From Sphaerolaimus hirsutus (taxonomy: Eukaryota > Nematoda > Chromadorea > Monhysterida > Sphaerolaimidae), in assembly GCA_964036195.1 (NCBI GenBank), contig OZ038450.1, forward strand, positions 30,754,794 to 30,818,793: DNA of 64,000 nt. Reading direction: 5' to 3'. The notes under the pieces were generated by a model. The model was not told where the DNA came from and did not search any database. It worked only from the letters and a program-made list of their open reading frames with translations. Below are positions 8,246-38,053 of the stretch, piece by piece. The translations under genes and the position numbers were made by a program. How positions within the stretch are numbered: position 1 is the first letter of the stretch; the number at the start of each line of letters is the position of its first letter.

Positions 8246-8439
8246 GAGCCACTCCCAGACCCTGTAAAAAGCCCTGTCAAATGTCAAATGTCATGCAACG
8301 TGTCAAAAGTCATGGAAAATGCCCTGCAAAATGGCAAACATACGGTTTCCATTTTGCAGGGCATTTTCCATGACTTTAGACACTTTGCATGACATTTTAC
8401 ATTTTACAGGGCTTTTACAGGATCTGGGACTGCCCCCAG
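8246..8439. mobile_element. Hairpin element inside LDLa module (possible introner)
   Basis: A near-perfect foldback: CACTCCCAGACCCTGTAAAA at the left and its inverse at the right, closing on GCAAAATGG/CCATTTTGC. Flanks CCCCAGGAG and CCCCAGGGA look like an imperfect 9-bp target duplication. Read as an intron it would be GA at the 5' end (CAG|GA) and CCCCCAG at the 3' end. No coding capacity. Confidence 0.7.
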
Positions 8440-8503
8440 GGAGTACCAGTGCAATGGCAAAAAAGACTGCAAAGATGGCGCTGATGAGAAGGGATGCCAT
8501 TGA
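8440..8503 (+). CDS. LDLa gene 1, terminal LDLa module, last part and stop
   Basis: Continues the module after the hairpin as REYQCNGKKDCKDGADEKGC, then H and TGA. It supplies cysteines 4-6 and the acidic DGADEK calcium site. The mirror copy at 42023-42086 has the same 64-bp length and, by my reading, one amino-acid change (K to R), which suggests the reading frame is kept under selection. Confidence 0.7.
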
Positions 8504-8609
8504 ACGATTTTGTGAATTGCGATCCTATGAGTGATGTTGAATGAATGCTTACAAACATATCAATGTCATTATAAATTGCAGTAAATTTAATGAAGTATAC
8601 ACGCACCTT

Positions 8610-8945
8610 TTATAAAGACAGCAAAAAATGGATCCGTGAAGCGTGTGGAAGCGGGCTGGATGCGCACACCACGAGATTCTGGGTGAAGTGTCTTCCACAC
8701 GCTTCACCTGGCTTCACCACGCACTTCACGCGCATCCAAGCATGTGGAAGACACTTCACGGTGCTGGCACTTCCACACGCTTCCCCCACATATACATTTG
8801 CGTGGGAGCGCCACATTAAGAAGTGTGAAGTGGCTTCACACAGATTTTCATGATGTGTGGAAGCGCTGGCAACTTGGTGAAGCGTCGGGAAATGTTGGCG
8901 TGAAGACACTTCCCGACGCTTCACCGCGCATCCACACGACACACC
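8610..8945. repeat. GAAGCGTGTGGAAGAC repeat region
   Basis: Degenerate direct and inverted copies of GAAGCGTGTGGAAG/CTTCCACACGCTTC. It corresponds to the better-ordered 55-bp array in the right arm (40485-40935). Long frames through it are repeat artefacts. Confidence 0.7.
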
Positions 8946-9584
8946 CATTTTTTGCTGTGACTGCAAACAATCAGTGGATGCACAAATCAAAACTTGATGA
9001 ACAGAAATGCAGATGGACAGTGTTGAAGTTGAAGTAAATTGGACTGACAGATCGCCACGGTGTTGCTATGTGTTATTGTTATTATGTGTTATTGCTTTAC
9101 AATGTTTTTTTGCTTTAGCATGTCTATTGCTTTACACTGTAATGTAATGCTCACACTTGAGTTATTTGAACAGTGGAGTTGTTGATTTGAGACAAAATAA
9201 AATGCGACACTCCAATTATGTGACCTCTCAAATAGTGTGACCCCAAAAATTTGCTGAAAACAATAATATTTTGACAACATGTTCCATGCATCGGTAGTGC
9301 GAAATCAAGCTGGTATTCGTAAGTTATTATCTTTCTGGATTTGCTGTTTTCTGACTACGTAAGTTCCCAAATTCGCAAGTGTGGTGATGTTATTACATTA
9401 TTCACAACGTGTTATCATAAAATACATATTATATATCAACATTGAAAAAACCATTGTTTTCAAATATAGATGAATTAATCACTCGGTACTGTCACTGCGG
9501 TATCACGTCTCAATTAGACGATAGTCCGACCAATTACGCTATTTTGTCGGTTCACCGTGACGTATCTGCAAAGCGTCAAACCAT

Positions 9585-10329
9585 CAGGGTTGGCAAAATC
9601 TCAGAGAAAAAAATAAAAATAAAATAAAAATAAAATGGAAAATGAAGAATAAAATTAAAAAAAATAAAATGGAAAATTAATAAAATAGAAATACAATTTT
9701 ACTAAAATTCAAATTTTTGTAAAAATTTTAGTAAAATTGTACAAAAATTCGAATTTTCATACAATTTTAGTAAAATTTTACAATAACTCCAGTGTTTGTA
9801 AAATTATATAGAAGGTTTTCTATCCTGTTGCTTAAGATTTTAGCTGCCAATTTGCAGAACTGGTGCAAATTGGAACTGGTTTCTTCAATCATTGTGATTG
9901 AAAAATATTTTTGCTCAAAATTGCAAACTTTCACATCCTTTAGTATTTTTTCACCTAAAAAATCACTATTTTTATTGATTATCTCCCCATTTTCTTAGTT
10001 CCATACCTTGAAAAAACCTATATATCAAACCTAAAAAAACCTATATACCTAAACCGCGTCACAAGACTACATAAAAATTGTTTGTGTTCATCTGCATGTT
10101 TCTAGCATGCACATTGTTTTATAGCCTTGCATCCAAGATTCAGATTTTTTGTACAATTTTTGTAAAATATTTGTAAATTTTTTGTAAAATGGTTTCATTT
10201 TTTACTATTAATGACATTTCAGAATAAAATAAGATAAAATAAAACATGAATAATATAAGAATAAAATACAATCCTAATATAAATAAAATACAATTTTAGT
10301 AAAAAAGAAGTTTACTAAAACCAACCATG
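9585..10329. mobile_element. hAT-like element, CAGGGTTGG family
   Basis: Starts CAGGGTTGGC and ends CCAACCATG, with 8-bp flanks CAAACCAT (9577-9584) and CACACCAT (10330-10337). The interior is ATAAAAT-rich with no gene. It cuts the last LDLa module of gene 2 just before cysteine 6. The orthologous insertion in the other arm is 38153-39823, so it predates the duplication. Confidence 0.85.
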
Positions 10330-10428
10330 CACACCATGGATATTCATCGGCGCCATCAGCGCATTGTTCGGTGCCATCGCATACTTCATTAGCTTGAATG
10401 CAGGCGGACTCGTACTGATCCTGGAATT
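10330..10428 (-). CDS. LDLa gene 2, module E, cysteines 3-6
   Basis: On the - strand, after CTCCCAG, it reads EFQDQYESACIQANEVCDG and continues TEQCADGADEYPWC. This is the second half of an LDLa module whose first half ends the exon at 13652. Removing 10429-13651 joins ...GLKP and EFQ... in frame. The copy in gene 3 (38054-38152) is the same length with several substitutions but all cysteines kept. After the hAT element at 9585-10329 the frame could continue briefly to a stop near 9540. Confidence 0.7.
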
Positions 10429-10653
10429 CTGGGAGCAGTCCCAAACCCTGTCAAGTGTCAAGTCAAATGTCAAATTTAATGACAATATCAATTGAAATAA
10501 TAAATAAAAATATTTGGCTGGTTACAACGGCCCTTATTTTATTAATTTTTCAACGGTCAATAATTAGTCTGTAAGTGGGTTATGGGACCGGTCCCTTATA
10601 AGGGCCACTGTAATAATCAAAATATTTTACGTAGTGATTTACGTATTTTATGG

Positions 10654-11075
10654 CCCGTATTTCCTCGAAATAACACCCCCCCCTCGAAATACCCCCTCAA
10701 AATAGGCACTATGAAGTAATAACCCCCCCCCCCTCGAAATACCCCCCCAATTGAGTGTAAATGGTACATCAATGACACAAGCTGCGGTTCATGACACATG
10801 CAATGCATAACACACGTTAAAAACAATGATTGTGTTACGTTAGAACATGGTTTATACCATCTACATACTTATATAAGGTTGTGGACTCTTAAATATAGTG
10901 GTTTTTGTCGCATTTTTCTGCGTCTGGCTACATTATTAGTACCGGGAGTTAAAAAAAATTCTGGCGAAATAATAACCCCCCCCCTCGAATTACCCCCCTC
11001 GAAATACCCCCCACCCCTCAAAGTTCTCACTATGAAAAAATGAACCCCCTGGGGGTATTTCGAGGAAATACGGTA
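10654..11075. mobile_element. MITE, CCGTATT family
   Basis: CCCGTATTTCCTCGAAATAA to CGAGGAAATACGGTA. The same insertion occurs in the other arm at 37403-37829. Confidence 0.85.
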
Positions 11076-11310
11076 ATAACTTGTAGACACCCAACGATCG
11101 CAAACCATCTGTAAGAAAGATTAATTTTTTTATGTTTTTTTCTAATACTTTTTTTATTTTTTTTATTTTTCAAATCCTTTTCGATTTATATTTTTCACTT
11201 TTAGAGTTACTTTTCGAATTTTCAATTTTTTCCCTCTAAATTACAATTTTTCTTCGTAATTGAAATATATCAGTTTGTTTTGCAGCTGGTTTTTCTAGTG
11301 TTGAAAAAAG

Positions 11311-12710
11311 GGCTATTTACACAGGCTCTGGCCGGGGACCGGTCCCAAGCAAAAAATTAAAATTGTCAAAAGTCAGTAATTGGTGTGTATGGGTTGATTG
11401 CATGTAAATTAGGTTAATTAACACCAAATTTGCATGCACAAAATTTCTGCTACACGGTTACACACACCCATGCATATTTTTTGGGGTGTGTAAATTTATT
11501 TTGATTTGGCTCAAATTTGGCATGCCTGTACTCCTTCGCCTAGTGAGTTTGCATGCCAAATTTCAGCTCAGGGCAATCAGTGAATCCTATTTTATTTACA
11601 CTTTAATTTTCATCGATCACTGTATTTTTGTATAGTGATCGAAATCCTGCTGTGGCCCAGTCCCCGGCAATGTCAAAATGGCCCCGACCGGGGTCAAATG
11701 TCCCCGGTGAGAAAAACATTTTTTCAGTAAACAAAGAATTTTTGTCCCCGACTGGGGACATTCGCCCCAGCAGGGGACAAATTTTTAGTCCCATGCCGGG
11801 GACGAATGTCCCCGGTCGGGGACCAACATTCTTTGTTTACTGAAAAAAATATTTCTCAACGGGGACGTTTGACCCCGGTCGGGGCCATTTTGACATTGCC
11901 GGGTACCAGGCTCCGGCAGGATTTCGATCACTATACAAAAATACAGTGATCGATGAAAATTAAGATGTAAATAAAATAGGATTCACTTATTGCCCTGAGC
12001 TGAAATTTTGCATGTGAACTCACTAAGTGAAGGAGTACACACATGCCAAAATCCAGACAAATCCATAAAAATTATACACTCACCCAAAGAAAATGCATCA
12101 GCTCATGTAACCATCTTGCAAAACTTTTGTGCATGCTATTTTGGTGATAATTCACCTAATTAACATGCAAACGACCCATACACACCAATTACCGTATTTC
12201 CTCGAAATACCCCCCGGGGGGTGATTGTTTCATAGTGGTCCCGAGAGGGGGGGGTTAAACGAGGGGGGGGGGGGTATTTCGAGGGGGGGGTTATTGTTTC
12301 ACAAGAAAATTTTTGAAAACCAAGTACGAAATTGTCGTCTGAAACGTACGCAGACGTCGAAAAGTGCAACAAAAACCGCCATTTAAAAGGTTCTGTAGAC
12401 TAATATTAGTATGTAGATGGTATGTACACTGTTCTAACGTGACACCGACATTGTTTTAACGTGTGTTCTGCAGTACACTGAACACAAACTACAGTTATTG
12501 TCATGTACGTTCCCTTTACACTCAATTTGGGGGGGGGGGGTATTTCGAGGGGGGGGTGATTGTTTCATAGTGGTCTCGAGAGGGGGGGGTCAAACGAGGG
12601 GGGGGGGGTATTTCAAGGGGGGGGGTATTTCGAGGAAATACGGTACATACTTTTGAAATAAAAATTTTTTGCCGGGGACCGGTCCCCGGCCGGGACCTGT
12701 GTAAATAGCC
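11311..12710. mobile_element. GGCTATTTACACAGG element (Mutator-like?)
   Basis: Ends GGCTATTTACACAGG and its inverse. Subterminal GGGGACCGGTCCCC repeats, then a long internal inverted repeat with AAATTTTTGTGCATGCTAA-like sequence and repeated CCCCGGTCGGGGAC motifs. A sister copy at 38842-39772 has a clean 9-bp target duplication, which suggests a Mutator-like origin. No transposase. A MITE (12190-12645) is nested. Confidence 0.75.
12190..12645. mobile_element. MITE, CCGTATT family, with empty site in other arm
   Basis: TACCGTATTTCC to GGAAATACGGTA. The right arm (near 36291-36300) has the unoccupied sequence with a single TA where this element sits, so TA is the target duplication. This suggests a Tc1/mariner-type transposase in trans. 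Confidence 0.9.
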
Positions 12711-12804
12711 GGAAAAAAAGATTTGAAAACTCAAAAAAATATGTTAATTTGAAAACTTTTTTAATTTTAGAATTTTTGTTTGCCATAGTTTCATGCTTAC
12801 AGTA

Positions 12805-12895
12805 TACCGTATTTCCTCGAAATACCGCCCCCCCACTCCTCGAAATACCCCCTCTCAAAAAACCACCAGCGCCATGGCGTTTTTCCATCACTACA
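12805..12895. mobile_element. MITE end fused to hAT-like end
   Basis: A CCGTATT MITE left end runs directly into the end of a TAGTGATGG hAT-like element (GCGCCATGGCGTTTTTCCATCACTA). The same hybrid is at 36044-36134 in the other arm. Confidence 0.6.
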
Positions 12896-12939
12896 ACAGT
12901 ACATTGCACATTTGTATGACGTTTCACACTTGACTTTCA

Positions 12940-13620
12940 CAGGGAAGAGTAAAACGCTGACAGCTCGCTGACAGCTCGCTTGCCAACCAGTAGAAAAATG
13001 GGCAGCTCGCTGACAAAAATTTTCAGCTTGCTGACAGCCCGCTGACAACTCAGCTGAACTATTATGTAGCTCGCTGACAGCTCGCTGACAAAAATGTTAA
13101 ACATGATGTTTCATTTGACCCAAAAGAAAATGTAAATGTCATTCAGTGCAAGAAGTGTGGACTTCTAACTGCAGTGCAGTACCAATCAAAATGAGACCCT
13201 TTCTTCTCAACAGCGATGTACTTGCAATGAATTATTAGAAAGTGTTTCTTGAACAGTAAAAGTGTTTTTCAATGCTCATGAGGTGACTTTATTTACTTTA
13301 TTTACATGAGGAATAGTGATTTGATGTTTTGCTGCATGTTTGAACAGAGCTTTGAGTTGTCTGTTTGTTTACTCAGATCGATTTTGGGTCAAAAAATGAG
13401 TTGTACATCACTCACACAATTGCACATCGTGAAGATACTCACTAAGCTGACAGCTCGCTGACAGCGAGACTGTTCATTTTTCAAAACTGCTGCAGCTCGC
13501 TGCCAACCGCTGACAGCTCGCTGACAGCAGGCGGCCAACCGCTGACAGCTCGCTGACAACTATAAACAAGTGGTTGTCAGGCTTGCTGTCAGCGAGCTGT
13601 CAGCGTTTTACTCTTCCCTG
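12940..13620. mobile_element. CAGGGAAGAG element with GCTGACAGCTC core
   Basis: Ends CAGGGAAGAGTAAAACGCTG and its inverse CAGCGTTTTACTCTTCCCTG. Inside each end are runs of GCTGACAGCTC. The right arm lacks it (empty site near 36010), so it inserted after the duplication. No coding capacity. Confidence 0.85.
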
Positions 13621-13651
13621 TGTTTACACTTTACAGTGTGCGCGACTGGCC

Positions 13652-13849
13652 CTGGCTTCAGGCCCGCTTCACAGAAGAAACCATAATTTAGATCGCATTC
13701 GTAATTGGCCTGGCAATCCTTCTCATCGGCGCCGTCTTTGCAGGCTATTTCTTTATTGCACCGGTCGAGGTCGTCGATGCAGTTTGACAAGTACTTTATC
13801 CAGTGGTTCGGGTTGAGGCCAGCCTCGCAGTAGAAACCCTTGCAGTTGT
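13652..13849 (-). CDS. LDLa gene 2, module D plus start of module E
   Basis: Starts after acceptor TTCGCAG on the - strand and reads NCKGFYCEAGLNPNHWIKYL, then SNCIDDLDRCNKEIACKDGADEKDC (one full six-cysteine module), then YECDLNYGFFCEAGLKP, the first two cysteines of another module. At 198 bp it equals the gene 3 copy (35778-35975) and is entered in the same phase as the other LDLa exons. Secreted LDLa protein; ligand unknown. Confidence 0.75.
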
Positions 13850-13887
13850 CTGCGAACGCTAAAGCTCTGCGAAGCCAAACAGTTTAT

Positions 13888-13996
13888 GGGGGTAGTTTGA
13901 GTGGGGGTTTATTATTTCCCCGGCTCACTCAGACGAGGGGGTATTTCGAGGGGGTGGGGGTTAATTCAAGCGGAGGATAATTCGAGGTGATACGGT
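13888..13996. mobile_element. CCGTATT MITE fragment
   Basis: Right end only: G-tract TATTTCGAGG blocks ending GAGGTGATACGGTG. Mirrored at 35631-35745, so it predates the duplication. It lies just upstream of exon D' on the - strand. Confidence 0.7.
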
Positions 13997-14345
13997 GTGT
14001 GGAACACTTTGCTGCTTCTTCATTTCAAAACACATTGATCCAACACAGAGAAAGGCAACAAAACAACAGTTAAAACATTGGTGACAACTGACAACTATTA
14101 AGCCAGAATTACAGCTCAGCGGCGTTTGACGTGAAATGATGACGTTGTAAAATTGATTACCTCAAAATCGACATATAGGTACAGCGTTGAAATATCCAAA
14201 TTTGATAGTTCTAGTAATTGTGTGTGATGTCCTAGAAAAAATTAAGAAAATAATTATTATTTAATAAGTTATTAATTTTACATCAAAATTTACACATTCT
14301 ACATCAACATTTCACATCAAACATTTTATGTCACCAAATTTTTTT

Positions 14346-15884
14346 GCCTATTTACACAGGTCCCAGTGGGAGACCAGTCCCCGGCAAAAAATAAAAAATT
14401 TCAAAAGTCTATAATTGGCGTGTCTGGGTTGTTTGCATGTTAATTAGGTGAATTATCACTAGGGTGTCAAATTTCCGTTTTCCGTTTTCCGTTTCCATTT
14501 TCCGCAGGCAATTTTTTTTCTGTTGTCCGTTCCATTTTCCGGCTGCTGAAATTTTTTTCCGTTTTCCATTCCATTTTCCGGCCACATTTTTTTCTGTTTC
14601 CGTTGTTTCGGCTCATTTTCCGTTTTCCGGCTACATTTAACGGCTACGTTTTCCAGCCACCCCAATTTTTTGTTTTTCCACCTCATTTGACCTTTTTTGG
14701 CTCAATTTTCTGTTTACTGTTCCAGCCAAACTGGGAAAAAAATTATGCAGATTGTCAATTATGTAAATTTTTCATTTCCCAGCAAAATTTCTGCAAAGTT
14801 TTCCCTCTTCCAGCAAAATTTCAGCAAATTTTATCCGTTTTTTTTTTGCTAAAATTTCGGCAAATTTTTCTGTTTCCATGCAAATTTCATTTTTCTGTTT
14901 CCGTTTTTCTGGCACCTTTTTTCGTTTTCCAGCCACTGAATTTTTTTTTTCCATTTCCGTTGCCGTTTTCCGCCATGTGCAATTTTTTTCCGTTTTCCGT
15001 TCCGTTTTGCGGCCACTGAAATTTTTTTCCGTTTCTGTTTTCCATAAAATAATTTTTTGACACCCTAATTATCACCAAATTAGCATGCACAAAATTTTTG
15101 TGAGACGGTTACACGTGCTGATGCATTTTATTTGTGGGAGTGTGTAAATTTTTTTTGGAGTTGTCTGAATTTTGGCATGTGAGTACTCCTTCATTTAGTG
15201 AGTACGCATGCCAAATTTCAGCTCAGCGCGGTTACCTGTTCTTATTTTATTCATACTTTACTTTTTTCAATCACTGTATTTTTGTACAGTGATAGAAATC
15301 CTGCTGGGGACCGGTCTCCGGCAATGTCGCAATGGCTCCGACCGGGGTCAAACGTCCCCAGTGCGAAAAAAAAATTTTCAGTAAAGAAAGAATTTTGGTC
15401 CCTGACCGGGGACGTTCGTCCCCAGCAGGGGACAAATTTTTAGTTGGGGTTGGGGACCAAAATTCTTTGTTTACTAAAAAAAATTTTTCTCACCAGTGAC
15501 GTTTGACCCCGGTCGGAGCCATTTCCACATTGCCGGAGACCAGGCCCCGGCAGGATTTCGATCACTATACAAAAATACAGTGATCGAAAAAAATTAAAGT
15601 ATAAATGAAATAAAAACTGGTAACCGCCCGGAGCTAAAATTTGGCATGGGTACTCACTAAATGAAGGAGTACACACATGCCAAATTTGAGATGAATAATT
15701 TTATACACCCACCCAAAAAAATATGCATTGGTGTGTGTAACCGTCTTGCAAAAATTTTGTGCATGCTAATTTGGTGATAATTCACCTAATTAACATGCAA
15801 ACAACCCATACACACCAATTATAGACATTAAAAAAAAATTTTTTGCCAGGGCCCGGTCCCCGGCTGGGACCTGTGTAAATAGCC
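14346..15884. mobile_element. GGCTATTTACACAGG element, nested
   Basis: Ends GCCTATTTACACAGGTCCC and GGGACCTGTGTAAATAGCC. Internal CCCCGG-rich inverted repeats as in 11311-12710. No clear target duplication seen. Confidence 0.75.
14460..15067. mobile_element. hAT-like element, TAGGGTGTCA family with TTTTCCG core
   Basis: TAGGGTGTCAAATTTCCG to its inverse TTTGACACCCTA with a perfect 8-bp duplication ATTATCAC (14452-14459, 15068-15075). The interior is almost only variants of TTTTCCGTTTTCCGG. A second copy with its own duplication is at 60884-61142. Confidence 0.9.
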
Positions 15885-16078
15885 AAAAATTCTGACGTTA
15901 AATTAATGACTACTTAAATAATGATTATTTGGTAAATTTTTTTTGGGAAATTACACACAATTACTAGAACTATCTAATTCTGAAATGTCAATGCTGTACC
16001 TTTGCCTATTTTGGTGTAATCAATTTTACAACATCATCATTTCACGTCAAACGCCGCTGAGCTGTAATTCCGGCTTAA

Positions 16079-16770
16079 TAGAGCAAAGTAAGGTTCAGAT
16101 GGTGTTTCATACTTTACTGGATGCGTGATTGACACCATTTCAATGTCTTTTGACGATATTTTCATTACTGTATTTCTCCATGTAAACTGCCCCCCTGTGC
16201 ACACTGCCCGGGGCATTATACAGCTTTATAGCACCCCCGGGGCGCTATGCACGGTTTGAAAAAATGTTAGAACAGTCTACATTTTTACATCTCAAATCAA
16301 GCTGAAACGTTTACTTTATTTGAACTGTTTGAATGTTGTGCCTTGCAGCACGCATTGTTATTCCGCATTATGCACGTTTTCCATTAAATTCAGTGCACGC
16401 TTCGAGGGAACACAAAATACCTACCTATGTAAATATTCAAGCAAAAATTTGCTGTGCATAACGCCCCCTCCTCAATGACTTAACGCCTGGGCGTTATACA
16501 AGTTTTAAAAAAAGGTTGCTGAAAAGTGCCTAGGTTTTGAAAATATTCGCAAATTGACGCACCAAGCATCAACTGTTGATTGATATAACACGTTGAACTT
16601 AAAAATGCATTTTGCAGCCTTGGATTTTGGGAAAAATTTCAAAAACTATTTTTGAATTTTCTGAAAAAGTCGCTTTTTAAGTGTTTTTTCCAGGGGTGGA
16701 ATACGAATTCGAAAATTTTGAAAAAATTCGAAAAAGCAAAAATATTTTCTCATCTTTTTGCCATCGTTAC
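16079..16770. other. Gene 2 intron, no gene seen
   Basis: AT-rich; CCCGGGGCATTATAC-like motifs near 16195-16260. The last 40 bases mirror the sequence next to exon C in gene 3. Confidence 0.5.
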
Positions 16771-16914
16771 CTGCATTACAATCCAGTTCATCCAAGCCAT
16801 CCTGACACGCTGGAATACCATCACACACATAGCTGGATGGAATGCAGTCCTCGTCAAGAAAAGTCTTGCACTTGAAGTCACAGTTGCTCCAGTACCCCAG
16901 AGAAGGCAGGCACA
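16771..16914 (-). CDS. LDLa gene 2, module C exon
   Basis: A 144-bp exon on the - strand between GGTGCAG and donor GTAACG, phase 1 at both ends. It contains CDFKCKTFLDEDCIPSSYVC and ends with CQDGLDELDCNAG, giving six cysteines in LDLa order. Closest relative is the gene 3 exon at 34292-34432, which shares flanking intron sequence in inverted orientation. No interruption. Confidence 0.85.
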
Positions 16915-17351: not shown

Positions 17352-18112
17352 CAGAGTTGTTAAAATACCGGTATTTTTGGAAAGTGTAAGTGTAAATAGA
17401 CTTTCCAAATTTTGAGTATGGATACCAAAAGTGTAAGGTATTTTAAAAATACCTAGGAAAATGTAAAAAAAAGTGTAAGGCAGCGTTTACACGGATTTTT
17501 GGGTGACGACGAATCACACTTTAAAAGTTCCAAATTTCAACTGAAAAGTTCCTTATTTTTGAGAAAAAGTGGTCGAGTATATATGGTACTCAGGAGTATA
17601 TGTATGTGAAATTTCATTCGTATTGGCTTGGTTGTTAAGGAGTGATAGACCACTGCATTTTTTTTTGTCGCCGGAAGCTGTCGGGAAGCCAACAACGATT
17701 CCGACAAATTGAGAAAATTTAATTTTGAGTGTGACGAATAGCAGATTCATCATTGTGATCGTCACACTCATACAGCAGACACACAGAAAAGTGGCTGAAA
17801 GTCGTCACAAGCTGTGAACGTGTTTTTTCAGTGACAACAATGTGTCTTTTATCTAAAACAGACACAGCACTTCAGCAAAATATTTTGGGAGTGTGTGTTG
17901 GTAGAATGCAGAGTTGTGCAAATACTGGTATTTTTGGAAAACGTAAACGTAAATACCTTTTCCAAATCAAAAGTATAAATACTAAAACATAAGGTATTTT
18001 CAAAATACCAAGGAATACGTAAAAAAAACGTAATTGTAAAAAAAAAATTTACACACAGTATTTGCCATTGTGCTGTGGAAAATACCATTATTTTCACACG
18101 TCACGACTGGCG

Positions 18113-18277
18113 TCACTCCCAGACCCTATAAAATGCCATGTAAAATGTCAAATGTAATGCAAAGTGTCTAAAAAAGCATGCAAAATGCTCAGGCAGGTGG
18201 CAAATCTTTGCCATTTTGCTGGGCATTTTACATGAGTTTTACAGGGCACCATACACAGAGTCTGGGATTGGCTGGCA
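18113..18277. mobile_element. CACTCCCAGACCCT hairpin element, degenerate
   Basis: CACTCCCAGACCCTATAAAA at the left, with the partial inverse ending TCTGGGATTG at the right and flanks GACTGGCGT/GCTGGCACC. The - strand sequence just to its right (18278-18365) has several TGC/TGT codons but no clear LDLa pattern; it may be a decayed exon of gene 2. Confidence 0.55.
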
Positions 18278-19249: not shown

Positions 19250-20026
19250 GTGACCCGGCAATGCAGAATATATGTCTAAAACAATGACTGTGTTATGTTA
19301 GAACAGGGTTTACACAATCTACATACTAAAATGTGTATAGACTCTTATACATGGTGCTTATTGTTGCATTTTTTAGGTCTGTGTACGTCAGGGGTATTCT
19401 AGTTTTCGGCCCTCCGGGGGGTTGGATAGATAGCCAATCGCTCCTCCAGAGGGATAGATAGCTGAAAAATTTTCTGGGGGGGGGGTTTGGGGGTGGGGGG
19501 TTCGCGGGGGTTCAATATATAGGCATAGAAGGGAGAAAAAGGAGAAAAATCACTAAAAGTAGGTGAAAAATGGCTAAAAATGGGTATATAAGGACATATA
19601 GTACTAAAAATAGCTCAAAATAGGCAGTTAGATGCACGAACTAGTGATTTTGGAGGTGCAAATCTATATATAGGTATGAAAAATAGCAATTTTGAGTGAA
19701 CATTGGGGTATAGTTTCACAAAAATTGCTCCAGATAGGTAGATAGCTGGCCGATTTGGGGGGGGGTTTAGGGGATAGTAGCCTAAAATTTTGCCTCCGGG
19801 ATAGATAAATAGCTGAGAGCGGCCTCTGGGATAGATAGATAGCTGGGCGATTTGGGGGGGTAACCCCCCCCCCCCTTTCCTACCCCTGGTTACAAACAAC
19901 AAATTAGTACTGTGAGTGCGAAAAATTTATGGTGAAGTAATAAGCCCCCCCCCCTCAAATAACCCCCCTCAAAATTTCAACTATGAAAAAATAAACCCCC
20001 TGGGGGTATTTTGAGGAAATATGGTA
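19250..20026. mobile_element. CCGTATT MITE remnant with inserted ATAGATAGC sequence
   Basis: Interior and right end of a CCGTATT MITE (ends GAGGAAATATGGTA) interrupted at about 19394-19890 by a segment with repeated GGATAGATAGCTG motifs. Confidence 0.55.
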
Positions 20027-21299
20027 TAGTTATCTCTTATTTTAATTGAAAATTGCTCAATAAACTTTACTATGTGTTATATGTTTCTGTGTTCTCCAAT
20101 AAAAAAACTTAGTTTTGAGTTTTTGAGTTTCTGTGTAAAACAAATTTAAAATTTAAAATTTTGTGTTTTTGCCATTGTTGAGCATGGTCAAAAACGTGTG
20201 TCGAAGTCTCGGCTTACATCAGCTTAACGAGTTCAGCCATCATTAATCCGACAGCAAAAATGGAATCTACAGGAATTCCTGATCATTACAAGTGTTCAAT
20301 GGATCAAATCGGTTGAGAAATGAGTGAGATGTGGATCACAAAAAAAATTGTCGGAGTCATGAAAATCGGCCTCGGTAGCGAGGCTGATCTGCAAAACTCC
20401 GACAAACTTGAACTTCACTTACAGGCGCGACTCAAATTTGTCGTCACAAGCTGTGAACGAGCTATGCTTGTGACGACATTCTATAAGTGACGTCACCCAT
20501 TTACATGTAAAATGTTTACAAAATTTGCATTATTGTATATCAAAATTTATCGAGGCTGATTTTACATGTGTGACAACCAAATTTATCGAGGCTGATTGGT
20601 CGTCACACATGTAAAATTACCAATTTTTGTCAAAAAATGTCTGTGACGACACAAAATTTTTGTCATCACCAAAAATCCGTGTAAACAGGGCCTAAGTGTA
20701 AAAAAATTTTTAGAAAGAGCTCGCACTGTTGAGCATTAGAAAACACCGCTGTTCTCACTTTTAGATCAATTTATTTATCATTTTCATGCATTATTTCACA
20801 TTTTACAGCCTTTTATGAAACATTTCAAACTGTAACAAATACTGTAGTGGTATGAAGTTCCCTAATAATGGCAGTTTTTCAGTGTTGAAATTTTACTGAT
20901 TAAGCAATGCGATACACACTGTTTAAATGCAAGAATGGACATGCAGCAAATGTCAATGCAAAGGTTGACTTTGTGTCCAGTTGGTGAACTTCCATTGATC
21001 TTGTCCTTTTTACAAAAGTATGATGAAACTGTAGAATACCATGAGTACTGATCAAAGGTTGTACATCAAAGGCTAGTTTGTACATTTGCCATATTTTCTA
21101 CATTCAATGCATTTTTGTACACGACCCTATTTTATGCTTTCTCAAAAGCATAAAACAGGGCCATCTGAAAGAAAAAAATACACTTTCTGTACCCGGGTAT
21201 TTTGCCCAGGAAAGTGTAAAAAAAGTGTATGGGTATTTTATGAAAGTGTAAGTGTAAGTGTAAATAAAAATACCCATTTACCCGGGTATTTCGGGTAAG

Positions 21300-28935: not shown

Positions 28936-28955
28936 GTATGTTTACGCACGCGCAG

Positions 28956-29074
28956 TGTGCCACTACGAGGACGCGAGCGAATGCGATTTCAAGTGCAAGG
29001 ACGGCGGCAAGTGCGTCGCTTTACGCGATGTGTGCAGCGGCACCAAAGAATGCGACGACAACTCCGATGAACAG
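28956..29074 (+). CDS. LDLa gene 3, module A, main part
   Basis: Starts after GCACGCGCAG in phase 1. Reads CHYEDASECDFKCKDGGKCV and ends CSGTKECDDNSDEQ, with cysteines 1-5. A 173-bp hairpin follows at CAG. Joining to 29248 adds GCGE and cysteine 6, and the total becomes 119+13 = 132 bp, exactly the length of the uninterrupted gene 1 LDLa exon, again phase 1 to phase 1 with donor GTATTG. Confidence 0.8.
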
Positions 29075-29247
29075 GGAGCACTCCCAGACCCTGTAAAAAG
29101 CCCTGTAAAATGTCAAATGTCATGCAAAGTGTCGAAAGTCATGGAAAATGCCCTGCAAAATGGCAACCGAGTTGCCATTTTGCAGGGCATTTTGCATGAC
29201 ATTTGACATTTTACAGGGCTTTTTACAGGTTCTGGGAGTGGCATCAG
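29075..29247. mobile_element. Hairpin element inside LDLa module A (possible introner)
   Basis: CACTCCCAGACCCTGTAAAA to its near-perfect inverse TACAGGTTCTGGGAGTG around a short loop near 29165-29175. As an intron it would be CAG|GGAGC...GCATCAG|GGG, a non-GT donor with an AG acceptor. It carries no coding sequence. Confidence 0.7.
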
Positions 29248-29260: not shown

Positions 29261-29419
29261 GTATTGACGGCATTCTCACATTTATTACTTTTCCATTCTA
29301 CCAAAATTGTGACACTGAGAAAGACGCTTTGTTATCAATTTTTCCCAACATACCGTAAATCCTCGAATAAGCCACCCCTTCGAATAACTCTCGCTCGACA
29401 AAGTCCCCCCTCTAGTGAG

Positions 29420-30381
29420 TAGTGATGTAAAGGCACCGGGGCACCGGTGCCCCGGTGCTGGGCACCGAAGGGCACCAGCACCGGTGCTGGTGCGATGCCA
29501 TTGCAATCTTCAGTCTTCATGTTGCCATTGCAATCTTCATGTTGTCAGTTTATGACAGAGATAGTTCCGTTCTCTGTATGGAAACGACTCCGATCAGTAC
29601 ACAATAGTGGATATGGGCAATGTAGAGTATTAAATATTTTATCTTTCATTCGTAATCACTGTAATTGCTTCATAAAAGTGATCGCCACATCATTCTGATA
29701 ATTTTAAGTGCTCAACCATCAAAATCGGTGGAAAATTCATGGAAATACCGTATTTCCTCGAAATACCCCCCCCCCCTCGAAATACCCCCCCCAATTTAGT
29801 GTATACAGAACGTAAATGACAAAGGCTGCAGTTTGTCATCCCGGCAATGCAGAACACACGTAAAAACGATGACTCTGTTATGTGAGAACAGTGTTTGTAT
29901 GTACGTCTACACACTTATAAATGTGATTAGAGTCTTATAAATGGCGATTTTTGTTGCATTTCTCGACGTCTGCGTACGTTTCAGACGACATTTTAGTACT
30001 GGGATTTCAAAAAATTTCTGGCGAAATAATAAACCCCCCCTCGAAATACCCCCCTCGTGTAACCCCCCTCAAAATTCTCACTCTGAAAAAATAAACCCCC
30101 CGGGGGTATTTCGAGGAAATACGGTATGCACTTCCGAGGGTGTCGCCACTGAGAAACTGCCTGATATTTACTTCGGAAATTCCAGCCCGGTGCGGTGCCT
30201 TTCGGTGCTAGCACCGGCAACCCGCCGGTGCCCTTCGGTGCCGGTGCTATTTTTTCCGAATGGCACCGGTGCCGGTGCCGGTGCGGTGCGGTGCCATTTT
30301 CTGGCCGGTCCATTTTTCATGCGTTGGCAAAGGTGCCGGTGCGGTGCGGTGCCATTTTTCCCGGTGCCTTTAACATCACTA
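29420..30381. mobile_element. hAT-like element, TAGTGATG family with GGTGCC core, nested
   Basis: TAGTGATGTAAAGGCACCGG to CCTTTAACATCACTA, 8-bp flanks CTAGTGAG and CTTGTGAG (one mismatch). GGTGCCGGTGCGGTGCGGTG repeats mark the right end. Confidence 0.88.
29746..30126. mobile_element. MITE, CCGTATT family, third nesting level
   Basis: TACCGTATTTCCTCGAAATA to CGAGGAAATACGGTA with TA at both edges, inside 29420-30381. Confidence 0.88.
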
Positions 30382-30951
30382 CTTGTGAGCGTGATGAAAA
30401 AATACCCGCCCCCTCGAATAACTCCCCCACTCACTTTGATGGGTAGAAAACTATCACAACATTTCACATTTACAAAAAAGTTTGTTGTATTTATTATGTA
30501 AATCATCGGTTTCTGTTCATCATCTTTATTATCTCTATAGATGTAAATATCATCTTGCAGCTACAGTTCACTAACATTGATTTTTCTGCTTGAATTGTAG
30601 ATTTTGCATTCATACAAATGATTATCTAACAAATTGAAACCGATTTGTGCATTTATTGAATGATGGATTTTACTGAACAACCCGCTGAACAACTGAACTG
30701 AAAATTCTGCTGAAAAAATCACTCCCCCGTCGAATAACTCCCCCCTGGAATAACTCTCCCCTCAAAAACTTCTGACGAAACAATAACTCCCCCGGGGACT
30801 TATTCGAGGACATACGGTAGGTAGTTTCAAACTTTGCAAACTATTTTCAGATTTCATGGCTATTTTAGGGTCACTCACTCCCACAGTCTTTCCACTTCCC
30901 ATTTAACTTCAGTGGTATTTGCCCAGTTTTCGTTGACATGTAGCAAGCAAC

Positions 30952-31177
30952 GGGGCAGGCCTGATACGCACATCTGCCCGATACGCACATTTTCCCGTTT
31001 TTTCCACTTGACACTTCTTCAAGTGATTTTCAGATATGAGTAAAGTGAAAAAAGTTGTGCAATGACATTAGTGAACTTTTTTCACTTCACTCATATCTGA
31101 AAATCACTTGAAAAAGTGTCAAGTGAAAAAACGGGCAAATGTGCGTATCGGGCAGATGTGCGTATCAGTGCACCCCC
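30952..31177. mobile_element. 226-bp hairpin element beside exon B
   Basis: Near-perfect foldback: GGGGCAGGCCTGATACGCAC at the left, inverted as GTGCGTATCAGTGCACCCCC at the right, with a perfect 9-bp duplication GCAAGCAAC (30943-30951, 31178-31186). The right flank leads into the acceptor of exon B 6 bp later. A different family from the GCCAGTCCCAG hairpins. Confidence 0.88.
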
Positions 31178-31192
31178 GCAAGCAACACTCAG

Positions 31193-31339
31193 GTGGCAAA
31201 TGTTTGGCGAATCTTTTCTACTGCACCGCGGGCGCTGTCGACAAGAAGATAAATCCACACGACTGCATTCCGGCTCATTTTAAATGCGACACTTTCAAGG
31301 ATTGCAATGATGCCGCAGATGAGCAGGGATGCCCGCCAG
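31193..31339 (+). CDS. LDLa gene 3, module B exon
   Basis: Follows acceptor ACACTCAG; reads GGKCLANLFYCTAGAVDKKI, then NPHDCIPAHFKCDTFKDC and NDAADEQGCPP, a full six-cysteine LDLa module. The 147-bp length keeps phase 1 to phase 1. The exon ends at CCAG and the next bases are GC, the start of a hairpin; the expected GT donor is missing, so either a GC donor is used or the hairpin displaced it. Confidence 0.75.
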
Positions 31340-31520
31340 GCGCCAGTCCCAGACCCTGTAAAATGCCCTGTGAAATGTCAAATGTCATGCAAGTGTGTCA
31401 AAAGTCACGTAAAATGCCCTGCAAAATGGCTACTTGGTTGCCATTTTGCAGGGCACTCTACATGACTTTTGACACTTGGCCTGACATTTGACATTTTGCA
31501 GGGTCTGGGACTGTGCCAAA
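31340..31520. mobile_element. Hairpin element at the 3' edge of exon B
   Basis: GCCAGTCCCAGACCCTGTAA to TTGCAGGGTCTGGGACTG, with CAAAATGGC/GCCATTTTGC at the loop. Flanks GCCAGGC and TGCCAAAC resemble each other. It sits at the exon-intron boundary rather than inside the module. Confidence 0.7.
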
Positions 31521-32500
31521 CTTGGGACTCCAAAATATTCCCTAAATAATGGTGGTCCAAGAATGCTCCCTAGAAAATCATCCCCCAGTGATGTCGTCCA
31601 TGGCCGTGATAAACGTGACGTAATCAAAGGAAAAAAAGCTGCCTGGAATAGGATCCCCTGAATATAATGCGTTTAAAAAGATGCATGGGTGAGCAGAAAA
31701 GACAAATAGTGATTTGGGATGGTGATCAAAATGATTTTTACATTCACAGGTTTTATGTCAAAATTGATACCTAGTTTGTGTATTATAACCATATTTCAAT
31801 ATGTTAATGAACAGGAATGTGATGTGCAAGCGAAGGCTCCCATGAAACTATTTACTTGATCCTTTTACATTCAAATCATCACATGTTTGAATCACTTTTA
31901 GCATGCTAATCACTCAAGCATTTTACCAGAGTTGTTACAATTACTGAACTTTTTTAAAAGTACATGGTCGGGCTGAAAAGTCCCCGGGCAGTGCTCGCCA
32001 TTCGCGCTAGGGGTAAGCTACGGTTATAAAATTTTAACACGTTAATATATCAGGTGTTTTGAGTTTTCACCCAAAATTTCACCCCTCTAGCTCCACCCAC
32101 TGCGGAACTGTGGGGGTTACAATTTCGGTCATTTCTCTAGCTCAACGCTGATTTAAGTTGTGATCATGAAACTTTGGCTAGTGTAAGCCACCAGTGTTGG
32201 CAATGTGCTGATAGTATTCAACACTTTCATCAACATCATTGCTATTAAGGTAAAATTAATATGCAGATCAGGGTGATGTGCAAGAACGTGGGAACTGTGA
32301 TGGATGTTTTTGGTGATCATCTGAGATCGTGTTGTATTGCAGTGATTTTAATGTTGTTTTGAAATGTGCAGTAAATTATAATGTCAATTAAATTTCATTT
32401 GTGTTTCATTACTAATCTGTAGTGGACACATTACCTGTGTTCAACAGCAGTGTGCATGAAAAACACCTCCTGTATTAACCTGTATTGACTAACCAGCAGT
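31521..32500. other. Gene 3 intron, no exon seen
   Basis: AT-rich sequence with a CAGAGTTGTTACAATTACTG hAT-like end fragment near 31927. No LDLa pattern. Confidence 0.5.
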
Positions 32501-32700
32501 NNNNNNNNNNNNNNNNNNNNNNNNNNNNNNNNNNNNNNNNNNNNNNNNNNNNNNNNNNNNNNNNNNNNNNNNNNNNNNNNNNNNNNNNNNNNNNNNNNNN
32601 NNNNNNNNNNNNNNNNNNNNNNNNNNNNNNNNNNNNNNNNNNNNNNNNNNNNNNNNNNNNNNNNNNNNNNNNNNNNNNNNNNNNNNNNNNNNNNNNNNNN
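32501..32700. other. Assembly gap (200 N)
   Basis: Run of N. It abuts the left arm of a foldback (32701-33068), a likely reason for the failed assembly. Confidence 0.99.
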
Positions 32701-33068
32701 CAGCAGACCGAAAATTTAACTTAAAACCAATTTTTTGTTTCACACTTGAAAAGTTGGTTTACAAAGTTCACTAGGGAAGGGTCCAAGGTTCAAAGTTACG
32801 TAAACAACATGACCTCTAAAATGCCTCCATAAGGAAATTTATTTGGGGTGAATATTATGATGTCATAATCACAACATCACAGGAACAAATTTAGACAAAA
32901 TTTTCACTTTTCCATTCACCCCAAATAAATTTGCTTATGCAGGCATTTTAGAGGTTATGTTGTTTACAAAACTTTGAACCTTAGACCCTCCCCTAGTGAA
33001 CTTTGTAAACCAACTTTTTAAGTGTGAAACAAAAAATTGGTTTAAAGTGAAATTTTCAGTCTGCTGTT
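32701..33068. mobile_element. Foldback element next to gap
   Basis: CAGCAGACCGAAAATTTAAC through CACTAGGGAAGGGTC is repeated inverted at 32985-33065, and CACCCCAAATAAATTTGC pairs with GGAAATTTATTTGGGGTG. No coding sequence; the true left end may lie in the gap. Confidence 0.75.
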
Positions 33069-33674
33069 TATGGGACGGGGCGGGTGCCCCCCTGAAAAAA
33101 TTTTTGTGAGCAGAACTAGGGTGAAAAATCTTATTCAATATTATATCAGGCTAGTTCTGACAACATTTTTTTATAATGCAGTTGGGTGGCGAACTTGTTT
33201 GGGAGACTTGGGTTGTTTAAAAAAAGTACAACTTTATATGCGGCGACCCATGCCGTAGTGGGTTGTTGGCAGGCACCCACTGGTGTATTGTGAAAGGGGG
33301 TTGTTTGCAAGACATCCCCCAAATTTCAGTTTTATATCGCCCTCACAGCTAGAAATATGGCCCTCGTAGTGTAGCTGATCAAGTGAGTGGTGAACTTGTT
33401 TGGGACACCGAATAAGCCACAAAAAATGTTTGCATGTAGGGCGACCCACCCTGTAGTGAGTCGCCGCACCTTCCCCCATTGATACGTAGTAGCAGGGTGT
33501 TAGGACTATATACCCACGAAATATTACTTTTATACCACTGCCATAGCCAGAGATATAGCATCTGAAGTGAAATAAAAAAATGGGTGGTGAACTTGTCCGG
33601 GAAGGTGTTTATAACCACAAAGAAAGTCCATTTAAGAAACTTAATTCTCAAGCAGTTGTGGGAGACAATTCACC
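33069..33674. other. Intron sequence with degenerate direct repeats
   Basis: Two related blocks (33170-33370, 33370-33600) share GGTGAACTTGTTTGGGA and GGCGACCCA motifs. Small frames are not convincing. The edge from 33590 matches 21400-21475 inverted. Confidence 0.5.
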
Positions 33675-34195
33675 TGACAATCTCATTGATGCAAGTGGAA
33701 GACACTTCATCTGAAATCACATGAAGCATGTGGAAGCATGTGGAAGACACTTCATCTGAAATCCCATGAAGCATGTGGAAGCATGTGGAAGACACTTCAT
33801 CTGAAATCCCATGAAGCATGTGGAAGCATGTGGAAGACACTTCATCTGAAATCACATGAAGCATGTGGAAGCATGTGGAAGACACTTCATCTGAAATCCC
33901 ATGAAGCATGTGGAAGCATGTGGAAGACACTTCATCTGAAATCACATGAAGCATGTGGAAGCATGTGGAAGACACTTCATCTGAAATCACATGAAGCATG
34001 TGGAAGCATGTGGAAGACACTTCATCTGAAATCACATGAAGCATGTGGAAGCATGTGGAAGACACTTCATCTGAAATCCCATGAAGCATGTGGAAGCATG
34101 TGGGAGACGCTACATTTGAAATCATCATGCGGAAGCATGTGGATGATGTTTTTCCTGAATTTCCATGAAACATTAGGAAGCATGCGGAAGCATGT
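33675..34195. repeat. 45-bp minisatellite, about nine units
   Basis: Unit ATGTGGAAGACACTTCATCT followed by GAAATCMCATGAAGC and ATGTGGAAGC. Since 45 is divisible by three, both strands stay open for 150-190 codons of perfect peptide repeat (for example MWKTLHLKSHEACGS). Lack of a start, splice context or substitution pattern argues against a gene. The last units decay towards exon C. Confidence 0.95.
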
Positions 34196-34291
34196 GAAAG
34201 CATGTACCTAGATCCAAGCAAATTTGTCTTCACAGATTATCATGTTCTCACTCTATCTTCTGCCACAATACTATGTTTTCAAACGGTGCAG

Positions 34292-34432
34292 TGTGCCTGC
34301 CTGAGTTCTGGAGCGACTGCGACTTCAAGTGCAAGACTGTTCTTCACGACTACAACTGCATTCCATCCAGCCATGTGTGTGATGGTGCTCCAGAGTGTCA
34401 GGATAACTTGGATGAACTGGATTGTAATGCAG
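34292..34432 (+). CDS. LDLa gene 3, module C exon
   Basis: A 141-bp exon between AACGGTGCAG and donor GTAACG, phase 1 to phase 1. Contains CDFKCKTVLHDYNCIPSSHV and CQDNLDELDCNAG with six cysteines. Conventional GT-AG boundaries, no hairpin. Sister of the gene 2 exon at 16771-16914. Confidence 0.88.
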
Positions 34433-34514
34433 GTAACGATGGCAAAAAAGATGAGAAAAGATGAAAATATTTTTGCTTTTTCCAATTTCCGGCTTAATAG
34501 TTGTCAGTTGTCAC

Positions 34515-35539
34515 CAGGGTTGGCAAAATCTCAGAAAAAGATAAAAATAAAATAAAAATAAAATGGAATATTCAAGAATAAAATAAAATAAAATAAAATG
34601 GAAAATTTAAGAATAAAAATAAAAATTGTATAAAAATTCGAATTTTTGTAAAATTTTTGTAAAATTGTATAAAAATTTGTATTTTTGTAAAATTGTATAA
34701 AAATTCATATTTTTTTGTAAAATTTTGTCTCATTGCTTGAGTCTCTATCTGTTTTTTCATGGATCTGGGGGCAGTCCCAAGCATTGTAAAGTGTCAAATG
34801 TCATGTAAAATGTCATGCAAAGTGTCAATTGTCATGACAGATGTAGAGTAAAGTGTAAATTGTCATGACATGTAAAAATTAAAGTATCAATTGTCAAGGA
34901 AATTGTGTTCAAATCTCATTTCGCATTTCTTTATTTCGCAATCTTATGTTTTGTATCCAAATTATGTTGTTGTAGACTCCAAATCTTTTGTGAACATTTG
35001 GATACAAAAACATAAGATTTGGATATAAAACATACTATGGATACAAAAACACAAGATATGAATACACAATTTACACTTTGCAATTGCATGACATTTGACA
35101 TTTTGCATGACAATTGATACTTTACTTTACATTTGCTATGACAATTAACACCTTGCATGACATTTTACAAATGTACCCAGCACACTCGGGTAGTCCTTCT
35201 ACTGAAAATGCAAACTATTCTTATCAATAATTGTAACTTTACACTTGCAGCTAGCTAACAATACATACTGCATGCAACTTTTGAAAAGTAAGGGAAAAAG
35301 TTGTCACTGGTTTTTCATGTATAGGTCCAATTATAACATTTTTCTGGCCTTGCATGCATGTTTCTGAATTTTTGTAAAATTTTTGTAAAATTTTTGTAAA
35401 ATGTGTCATTTTATTTTATTAATCACTTTTGGGAATAAAATAAAATAAAATAAAACAAGAATAAAATAAAAATAAAATAAAATTTTTATACAATTTTTAT
35501 ACAATTTTACTAAAATGAATTTTTATAAAACCAACCCTG
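34515..35539. mobile_element. hAT-like element, CAGGGTTGG family
   Basis: CAGGGTTGGCAAAATCTCAG to ACCAACCCTG with a perfect 8-bp duplication GTTGTCAC (34507-34514, 35540-35547). The left arm has a single GTTGTCAC at 14081-14088 (inverted), the empty site. A GCAGTCCCAAGC...TGTCATG hairpin piece lies inside (34770-35170). Confidence 0.93.
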
Positions 35540-35630
35540 GTTGTCACCAATGTTTAAACTGTTGTTTCGTTGTCTTTCTCTGTGTTGGATCAATGTGTTT
35601 TGAAATGAAGAAGCAGCAAAGTGTTCCACA

Positions 35631-35745
35631 CACCGTATCACCTCGAATTATCCTCCACTTGAATTAACCCCCACCCCCTCAAAATACCCCCTGGTCTGAG
35701 TGAGCCGGGGAAAAATAAACCCCCACTCAAACTACCCCCATAAAC
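35631..35745. mobile_element. CCGTATT MITE fragment
   Basis: ACCGTATCACCTCGAATTAT with C tracts; mirrors 13888-13996. Confidence 0.7.
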
Positions 35746-35777
35746 TGTTTGGCTTCGCAGAGCTTTAGCATTCGCAG

Positions 35778-35975
35778 ACAACTGCAAGGGTTTCTACTGC
35801 GAGGCTGGCCTCAACCCGAACCACTATTTTCCGTACCCGTCAAACTGCATCGACGACCTCGACCGGTGCAATAAAGATATAGCCTGTAAAGACGGCGCTG
35901 ATGAGAAGGATTGCCAGGCCAATTACGAATGCGATCTAAATTATGGTTTCTTCTGTGAAGCGGGCCTGAAGCCAG
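35778..35975 (+). CDS. LDLa gene 3, module D plus start of module E
   Basis: Follows acceptor TTCGCAG. Module D reads NCKGFYCEAGLNPNHYFPYP, then SNCIDDLDRC and NKDIACKDGADEKDC. Then YECDLNYGFFCEAGLKP begins module E. The exon ends at CCAG before GTGCCAGTC, here a proper GT donor. Joined to 38054 it reads GLKPEFQDQYDSAC in frame, completing module E. Differs from the gene 2 copy at a handful of residues, all cysteines kept. Confidence 0.8.
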
Positions 35976-36228
35976 GTGCCAGTCGCGCACGCTGTAAAGT
36001 GTACAGTCAAGTGTGAACGTCATACAAATGTGCAATGTACTGTTGTAGTGATGGAAAAACGCCATGGCGCTGGTGGTTTTTTGAGAGGGGGTATTTCGAG
36101 GAGTGGGGGGGCGGTATTTCGAGGAAATACGGTATACTGTAAGCATGAAACTATGGCAAACAAAAATTCTAAAATTAAAAAAGTTTTCAAATTAACATAT
36201 TTTTTTGAGTTTTCAAATCTTTTTTTCC

Positions 36229-37176
36229 GGCTATTTACACAGGTCCCGGCCGGGGACCGGTCCCCGGCAAAAAATTTTTTTTCTTCAAAAGTATATAATT
36301 GGTGTGTATGGGTCGTTTGCATGTTAATTAGGTGAATTATCACCAAAATAGCATGCACAAAAGTTTTGCAAGATGGTTACATGAGCTGATGCATTTTCTC
36401 TGGGGGAGTGTATAATTTTTATGGATTTGTCTGGATTTTGGCATGTGTGTACTCCTTCGCTTAGTGAGTTCACATGCAAAATTTCAGCTCAGGGCAATAA
36501 GTGAATCCTATTTTATTTACATCTTAATTTTCATCGATCACTGTATTTTTGTATAGTGATCGAAATCCTGCCGGGGCCTGGTACCCGGCAATGTCAAAAT
36601 GGCCCCGACCGGGGTCAAACGTCCCCGTTGAGAAATATTTTTTTCAGTAAACAAAGAATGTTGGTCCCCGACCGGGGACATTCGTCCCCGGCATGGGACT
36701 AAAAATTTGCACCCTGCTGGGGCGAATGTCCCCAGTCGGGGACAAAAATTCTTTGTTTACTGAAAAAATGTTTTTCTCACCGGGGACATTTGACCCCGGT
36801 CGGGGCCATTTTGACATTGCCGGGGACTGGGCCACAGCAGGATTTCGATCACTATACAAAAATACAGTGATTGATGAATTTTAAAGTGTAAATAAAATAG
36901 GATTCACTAATTGCCCTGAGCTGAAATTTGGCATGCAAACTCACTAGGCGAAGGAGTACAGGCATGCCAAATTTGAGCCAAATCAAAATAAATTTACACA
37001 CCCCAAAAAATATGCATGGGTGTGTGTAACCGTGTAGCAGAAATTTTGTGCATGCAAATTTGGTGTTAATTAACCTAATTTACATGCAATCAACCCATAC
37101 ACACCAATTACTGACTTTTGACAATTTTAATTTTTTGCCGGGGACCGGTCCCCGGCCAGAGCCTGTGTAAATAGCC
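36229..37176. mobile_element. GGCTATTTACACAGG element
   Basis: Mirror copy of 11311-12710 without the nested MITE. Internal CCCCGGTCGGGGAC motifs in inverted arrangement; no gene. Confidence 0.75.
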
Positions 37177-37402
37177 CTTTTTTCAACACTAGAAAAACCA
37201 GCTGCAAAACAAACTGATATATTTCAATTACGAAGAAAAATTGTAATTTAGAGGGAAAAAATTGAAAATTCGAAAAGTAACTCTAAAAGTGAAAAATATA
37301 AATCGAAAAGGATTTGAAAAATAAAAAAAGTATTAGAAAAAAACATAAAAAAATTAATCTTTCTTACAGATGGTTTGTGATCGTTGGGTGTCTACAAGTT
37401 AT

Positions 37403-37829
37403 TACCGTATTTCCTCGAAATACCCCCAGGGGGTTCATTTTTTCATAGTGAGAATTTTGAGGGGTGGGGGGTATTTCGAGGGGGGTAATTCGAGGGGGGG
37501 GGGGGTTATTATTTCGCCAGAATTTTTTTTAACTCCCGGTACTAATAATGTACCCAGACGCAGAAAAATGCGACAAAAACCACTATATTTAAGAGTCCAC
37601 AACCTTATATAAGTATGTAGATGGTATAAACCATGTTCTAACGTAACACAATCATTGTTTTTAACGTGTGTTATGCATTGCATGTGTCATGAACCGCAGC
37701 TTGTGTCATTGATGTACCATTTACACTCAATTGGTGGGGTATTTCGAGGGGGGGGGGGGTTATTACTTCATAGTGCCTATTTTGAGGGGGTATTTCGAGG
37801 GGGGGGTGTTATTTCGAGGAAATACGGGC
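37403..37829. mobile_element. MITE, CCGTATT family
   Basis: TACCGTATTTCCTCGAAATA to CGAGGAAATACGGGCC; mirror of 10654-11075. Confidence 0.85.
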
Positions 37830-38053
37830 CATAAAATACGTAAATCACTACGTAAAATATTTTGATTATTACAGTGGCCCTTATAAGGGACCGGTCCCAT
37901 AACCCACTTACAGACTAATTATTGACCGTTGAAAAATTAATAAAATAAGGGCCGTTGTAACCAGCCAAATATTTTTATTTATTATTTCAATTGATATTGT
38001 CATTAAATTTGACATTTGACTTGACACTTGACAGGGTTTGGGACTGCCCCCAG

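Follow-up and report, generated by a model that had tools for sequence, protein, structure and literature searches.

Hairpin transposons with a CWG target probably act as introners in an invertebrate genome

Introners derived from DNA transposons have been described as similar elements that occupy many gene positions, many of their families being bounded by terminal inverted repeats (TIRs) and/or target-site duplications (TSDs) (Gozashti et al. 2022, PMC9860276). In that report, Chrysochromulina introners carry one splice site and take the 3′ site from the TSD, rare GA and GC 5′ sites occur, and a large survey recovered, among animals and land plants, introners in only two groups, both of them animals. 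Here we describe a family of hairpin-forming elements that interrupts exons for LDLa modules in a 64,000-nucleotide stretch of contig OZ038450.1 (the window, part of a 34-Mb contig in a 348-Mb genome) and conserved coding exons elsewhere in the same genome. Judged from genomic sequence, the hairpins are very probably a non-autonomous DNA transposon, a miniature inverted-repeat transposable element (MITE), that works as an introner in an animal. Introners from DNA transposons being already known, the hairpins would be one more of them, and, like those in PMC9860276, they are similar elements at many gene positions with a 3′ site that would come from the TSD as in Chrysochromulina; they differ in the invertebrate host, the 3-bp CWG target, the long perfect stems and the end of about half the copies, which offers TG rather than AG. 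No published animal introner of the hairpin-MITE kind was found in a literature search that left preprints aside.

Exact copies of a 20-mer from the hairpin arm number 2,501 in the genome (1,239 plus 1,262; the reversed control gave 0), and exact GT-ends with CWG number 1,631. The elements were sampled as 68 and then 88 loci around exact arm copies on one contig (C1), coding context being no criterion, and the 345 kb scanned, window included, held 114 hairpins, 110 of them outside the window and some duplicates of one another. The family ends are GTGCCACTCCC. The element is asymmetric, with GTGC at one end and GGGG (CCCC on the same strand) at the other, and the duplicated target is the 3-bp CWG, with the same triplet on either side of the element in 46 among the first 95 hairpins. 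At the 46 clean oriented sites (49 of the 114 hairpins being clean), the target is ACCWGGT, with CAG and CTG in 23 cases each. GT still stands first at the GTGC end in 86 of 103 oriented copies, so that the variable 5′ dinucleotide of the original prediction holds in the window (GA, GG, GC and GT) and not in general; its invariant AG on the 3′ side is a feature of the window, since half of the clean oriented copies, read GT-first, end in CTG.

The 3-bp TSD, the TIRs, the short and non-coding sequence and the Harbinger3-type ACCWGGT target are those of a PIF/Harbinger MITE; an 8-bp, hAT-like duplication first considered from the window was abandoned on the strength of the genome sample. Harbinger3_DR, with the target preference AAACACCWGGTCTTT (PMC3016246), shares the palindromic ACCWGGT core, the short non-autonomous TIR element and the 3-bp duplication. 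An autonomous partner with the hairpin ends was not found here. A Harbinger-type DDE_Tnp_4 transposase is abundant as very similar copies (at least 163 matches) and is a possible source of activity for the CWG elements. The one copy of it that was read (L092) has in-frame TGAs that, by eye, apparently lie within ordinary introns, and no TIR in common with the hairpins was seen in it.

In the mechanism that we propose, the element inserts into ACCWGGT and duplicates CWG, and a GT-first insertion in an exon would yield C(A/T)G|GTGCC...CCCC-C(A/T)G|. The 5′ GT would thus come from the element and the 3′ end from the duplicated target, so that removal would return the original exon. A CAG site would give a plain GT-AG intron, as in the genes for carnitine acyltransferase, OSCP1, Mak10, PRMT5, a CDK and PLC. 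A CTG site, the type found in TPT, CHGN and both primase loci, would give a GT-TG intron, or else the AG of the right arm (GGGAG|TGCCCCCTG) would be used and three codons (nine bases) be left behind. The spliceosome would remove the hairpin from RNA, with UUUGAC motifs in the right arm as candidate branch points. In the hairpin of a chondroitin synthase gene (CHGN), which folds with a z of -21, the last bases of both ends are unpaired, which may leave both splice sites exposed and adjacent.

To see whether exons are rejoined, the flanks of 34 of the 110 hairpins outside the window, chosen by eye, were joined and compared with Pfam. Seven domains above the Pfam cut-off run through the junction (E-values in brackets): TPT of an SLC35-like transporter (3.6e-15), DNA_primase_lrg of the primase large subunit (2e-12), CHGN (5.9e-16), Carn_acyltransf (2.6e-16), Oscp1 (3.4e-19), Mak10 (8.1e-6) and PRMT5_TIM (5.6e-10; L088). 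An eighth, a CDK-like Pkinase (4.2e-4), spans it below the cut-off. In three more cases, PLC, MOFRL and GDT1, a domain lies beside the junction, and in PLC the Y part and the C2 part follow each other in the right order, each of them below the cut-off. When aligned to solved structures of primase, chondroitin synthase 2, carnitine octanoyltransferase, CDK7 and PRMT5, the joined flanks show no gap where they meet. That the hairpin is translated as part of the protein is ruled out: read-through hits at least one stop in each of the seven cases processed by script (TPT, primase, CHGN, Carn_acyltransf, PLC, OSCP1 and Mak10), and the CDK copy contains a stop as well. Many similar elements lie in coding exons that are rejoined on their removal, and beyond the window they interrupt exons at unrelated positions in eight genes, each with a domain that continues across the hairpin.

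Each of the eight copies crossed by a domain has its GT end first in the direction of the gene (two-sided p = 0.008, calculated by hand), and the PLC and MOFRL copies bring this to 10 of 10. Such a bias towards the splice-competent strand, characteristic of introners, is not expected if the insertions broke genes or if the hairpins left via DNA. In nonconventional euglenid introns, hairpin-reading removal independent of the spliceosome has been suggested, and ciliate internal eliminated sequences are cut from DNA in somatic cells. Either process would suit the near-perfect stems, which set both ends side by side, and the window copy at 29075, which lacks a terminal GT and the forward orientation; since stem and target are nearly symmetric, neither predicts a GT-first bias, and we regard both as very unlikely. 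Pooled with the window, PLC, MOFRL and GDT1, 12 of 14 copies are GT-first (hand-calculated p = 0.013).

A codon-usage test that does not depend on homology placed 14 of 25 loci in frame (p = 0.016), 12 of them GT-first. The two that are not, L011 and L051, were scored on the strand opposite to that backed by Pfam (L011) or by our own judgement (L051). The near-duplicate loci L045, L046, L049, L050 and L082 were excluded from the count. An earlier codon model, whose training data included hairpin flanks, found 16 in frame among the 23 loci that had not been used to train it; the later one was trained on CCT exons (971 codons, including one 41-codon exon in the wrong frame), and both are noisy. 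The later model assigned the wrong strand to primase (L011), TPT and L003, and it scored PRMT5 out of frame owing to a misplaced right boundary.

If the hairpins were ordinary MITE insertions that break genes, the in-frame rejoining would reflect nothing but insertion into exons, and the genes would be pseudogenes or null alleles. Any insertion minus one duplication gives the frame back, and several exon copies have clean, recent-looking ends, as this explanation would have it. Genome searches with three of the genes turned up no copy free of the hairpin: TPT (C1:1052447-1052875) and CHGN (C1:5420991-5421457) each have a single locus, which is interrupted, and the primase piece occurs twice, at C1:3009181 and 100 kb away at C1:3109177, with an interruption at both loci. 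Over 75 codons the primase copies differ by six synonymous changes and one nonsynonymous change (p = 0.001), while 1 of 180 hairpin letters and 0 of 196 other noncoding letters differ. The hairpin-bearing primase exon is under purifying selection, and this conservation is our strongest argument for removal of the hairpin from RNA. Gene breakage leaves these loci, and the uniform GT-first orientation, unexplained, and we consider it improbable.

Within the window, hairpin arms gave 10 matches to a 20-mer (up to three mismatches) against 0 in 100 shuffles, and the LDLa exons are genuine by Pfam PF00057. The copies, their mirror copies and the exons concerned are as follows.

8150..8245, + strand: LDLa module A, left part; joined module matched to PF00057
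8246..8439, + strand: hairpin plus right CAG, splitting LDLa module A; GT-first orientation with 5′ end GA (GAGC) and other end CCCC; TSD CAG at 8243-8245 and 8437-8439
8440..8505, + strand: LDLa module A, right part; joined module matched to PF00057
10428..13652, - strand: mirror of 35976-38053; one T lost at the 5′ end (GGCC)
18110..18277, strand not assigned: additional degenerate hairpin copy; no module split seen
28960..29074, + strand: LDLa exon left of the 29075 hairpin; joined module matched to PF00057
29075..29247, - strand: hairpin plus right CAG, reversed relative to the LDLa frame; GGAG first and GCAT last, hence GG..AG; fold z -17
31340..31520, + strand: hairpin adjoining the 3′ edge of an LDLa module that is complete; begins with GC and lacks the TSD at its right end, which reads AAA
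34292..34432, + strand: undisturbed LDLa exon, an internal control with ordinary AG..GT borders; PF00057 3.1e-7
35760..35975, + strand: LDLa modules left of 35976; joined module scored with Pfam
35976..38053, + strand: two hairpin ends separated by some 2 kb of other repeats, splitting LDLa module B; GT-first with CAG end, GT..AG
38054..38152, + strand: LDLa module B, right part; joined module scored with Pfam
42087..42283, - strand: mirror of the 8246 hairpin; GA common to both, 4 of 183 positions differing

One hairpin family at 8246-8439, 29075-29247, 31340-31520 and 35976-38053 had been predicted, and these coordinates, with a CAG before each, were recovered. Removal of the hairpin and one target duplication returns three modules (8245/8440, 29074/29248 and 35975/38054) to six cysteines. 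The joined modules match PF00057 at 2e-9 for 8245/8440, in a match that starts five residues left of the join, and at 1.6e-6 for 29074/29248; the third has its six cysteines and a value of 0.038, below the cut-off. The 31340 copy lies at an LDLa exon edge as described and splits no module, adjoining instead a complete six-cysteine module, with AAA rather than CAG at its right end. The 29075-29247 hairpin folds into a near-perfect stem (z of -17 relative to 200 shuffles), and its GG is the element in reverse orientation. The GA of the 8246 copy resembles a GT that has decayed; GA is a 5′ site of the type that some introners use, according to PMC9860276. The expected mirror copies are present in an imperfect inverted duplication (8052-13920 and 35540-45959) with aligned arms 94-100% complementary, and the mirror at 13652/10428 has lost a T at its 5′ end, giving GGCC instead of GTGCC.

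Several observations weigh against reading the hairpins as introners. In 23 of the 34 Pfam-tested hairpins the joined flanks yielded no domain that could be used, either across the junction or next to it, a few weak unrelated matches apart, and the sample comes from a single contig. The GDT1 copy (L060) is reversed, with homology on the right side only, and in the window two of the three split modules are GT-first, the 29075 copy being reversed (GG..AG). At the strictest threshold of the codon-usage test, 5 of 11 loci are in frame and the frame excess fades. Near-perfect stems of 170-190 nt could hinder spliceosome assembly. The primase copies could be two haplotypes that were not collapsed, in which case both alleles would be conserved with the hairpin in place. 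Between the window arms, the LDLa exons differ by 15 nonsynonymous and 5 synonymous changes (divergence dN 0.041 and dS 0.060, respectively), against differences at 7 of 701 noncoding positions and at 4 of 183 in the hairpin; in the exons compared, the coding parts are thus more diverged than the noncoding ones, and the LDLa exons show no clear purifying selection. The resulting dN/dS of about 0.7 counts in favor of gene breakage. A ratio near 1 had been named beforehand as refuting removal from RNA, and the value obtained, on few changes, is neither proof nor refutation. Intact flanks in both arms, which the original prediction took as a sign of such removal, are for the same reason a weak argument, and the window alone was dropped as proof of intron behavior. 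Support for intron-like behavior of the hairpins in coding exons comes instead from genes elsewhere in the genome, where conserved domains continue without gaps across them.

Among introner readings, the 3′ site of the CTG copies divides two that are otherwise the same. In the one, spliceosomal removal occurs only at GT and AG: CTG copies use the arm AG (GGGAG) and keep TGCCCCCTG, and there is no TG splicing. In-frame solutions with the arm AG exist in TPT, primase copy 1 and two GPCR-like genes (G protein-coupled receptors by our own judgement, not named by Pfam), the host introns that we placed in two CCT genes are GT-AG in our judgement, and Aureococcus introners add 12 nt (PMC9860276). Against this stand CHGN, which has GGGAC and no arm AG, and where the listed GT-AG options that keep the frame either lose ADLFVK or gain many residues, and primase copy 2, which has lost the arm AG (GGGAATG) with its exon still conserved. 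We give splicing at GT and AG only a little less than an even chance. In the other reading, one transposon family would mass-produce animal introns, about half of them GT-TG, with UG serving constitutively as the 3′ splice site wherever the two ends are kept together by a perfect hairpin, which we propose tentatively as somewhat short of an even chance. TG also serves as a 3′ splice site in 36 human genes (Szafranski et al. 2007, PMC2374985); there it is an alternative site, whereas here it would be the sole exact end of the CTG copies. If this reading is true, it depends on the target chosen (CAG or CTG) whether the intron gained is a canonical one. Intron gain is a long-standing question, for which the genome would offer abundant raw material under a simple target rule, and equal landing in CAG and CTG would amount to a natural experiment on what a 3′ splice site needs and on whether RNA structure can substitute for it.

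Animal introns that depart from GT-AG are also known from the tunicate Fritillaria borealis, with AG/AC and AG/AT as the commonest termini (PMC13326754); here, in contrast, GT is kept, other placed introns are GT-AG and the host does not fit the tunicate mitochondrial code. COX1 contains 14 in-frame TGA codons, and several mitochondrial codes leave it open. AGA falls at serines and ATA at methionines, at residues that we take to be conserved, and this fits the invertebrate mitochondrial code and not that of tunicates. A tunicate host, considered on account of the Fritillaria precedent and the length of the contigs, was set aside on the basis of COX1. The precedent itself, invoked in the original prediction, proved a poor fit, the placed CCT introns being GT-AG, COX1 fitting the invertebrate code and AG/AC or AG/AT termini not being those of the hairpins. 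The assembly has at least 11 contigs longer than 20 Mb.

Myosin and CCT listings viewed by eye for gaps of about 190 bp gave no clear new case, and two CCT genes were retrieved from them. At L002:95-441 (minus strand), a hairpin lies exactly at an apparent canonical 5′ splice site (CAG then GTGAGAG), from which hairpin copies may also shift existing splice sites. The reversed copy at L060:429-604 stands directly before the GDT1 domain and has an acceptor, TTTTACAG, in its right arm, at which an exon might begin. Another abundant repeat, whose ends resemble TACCGTATTTCCTCGAAATACCCCC, occurs at many places in the window (for example 19949-20027 and 30049-30127), often near or nested beside hairpins. 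A viral-contig scan for a repeat neighboring the hairpins found none, and no Rfam family reached the gathering score in the window. Open reading frames at 61270-63201 resemble, in our judgement, a retroelement, one of them matching NADAR (PF08719) at 7e-5, below the cut-off, and a 44-bp tandem array of roughly 30 units occupies 1800-3111.

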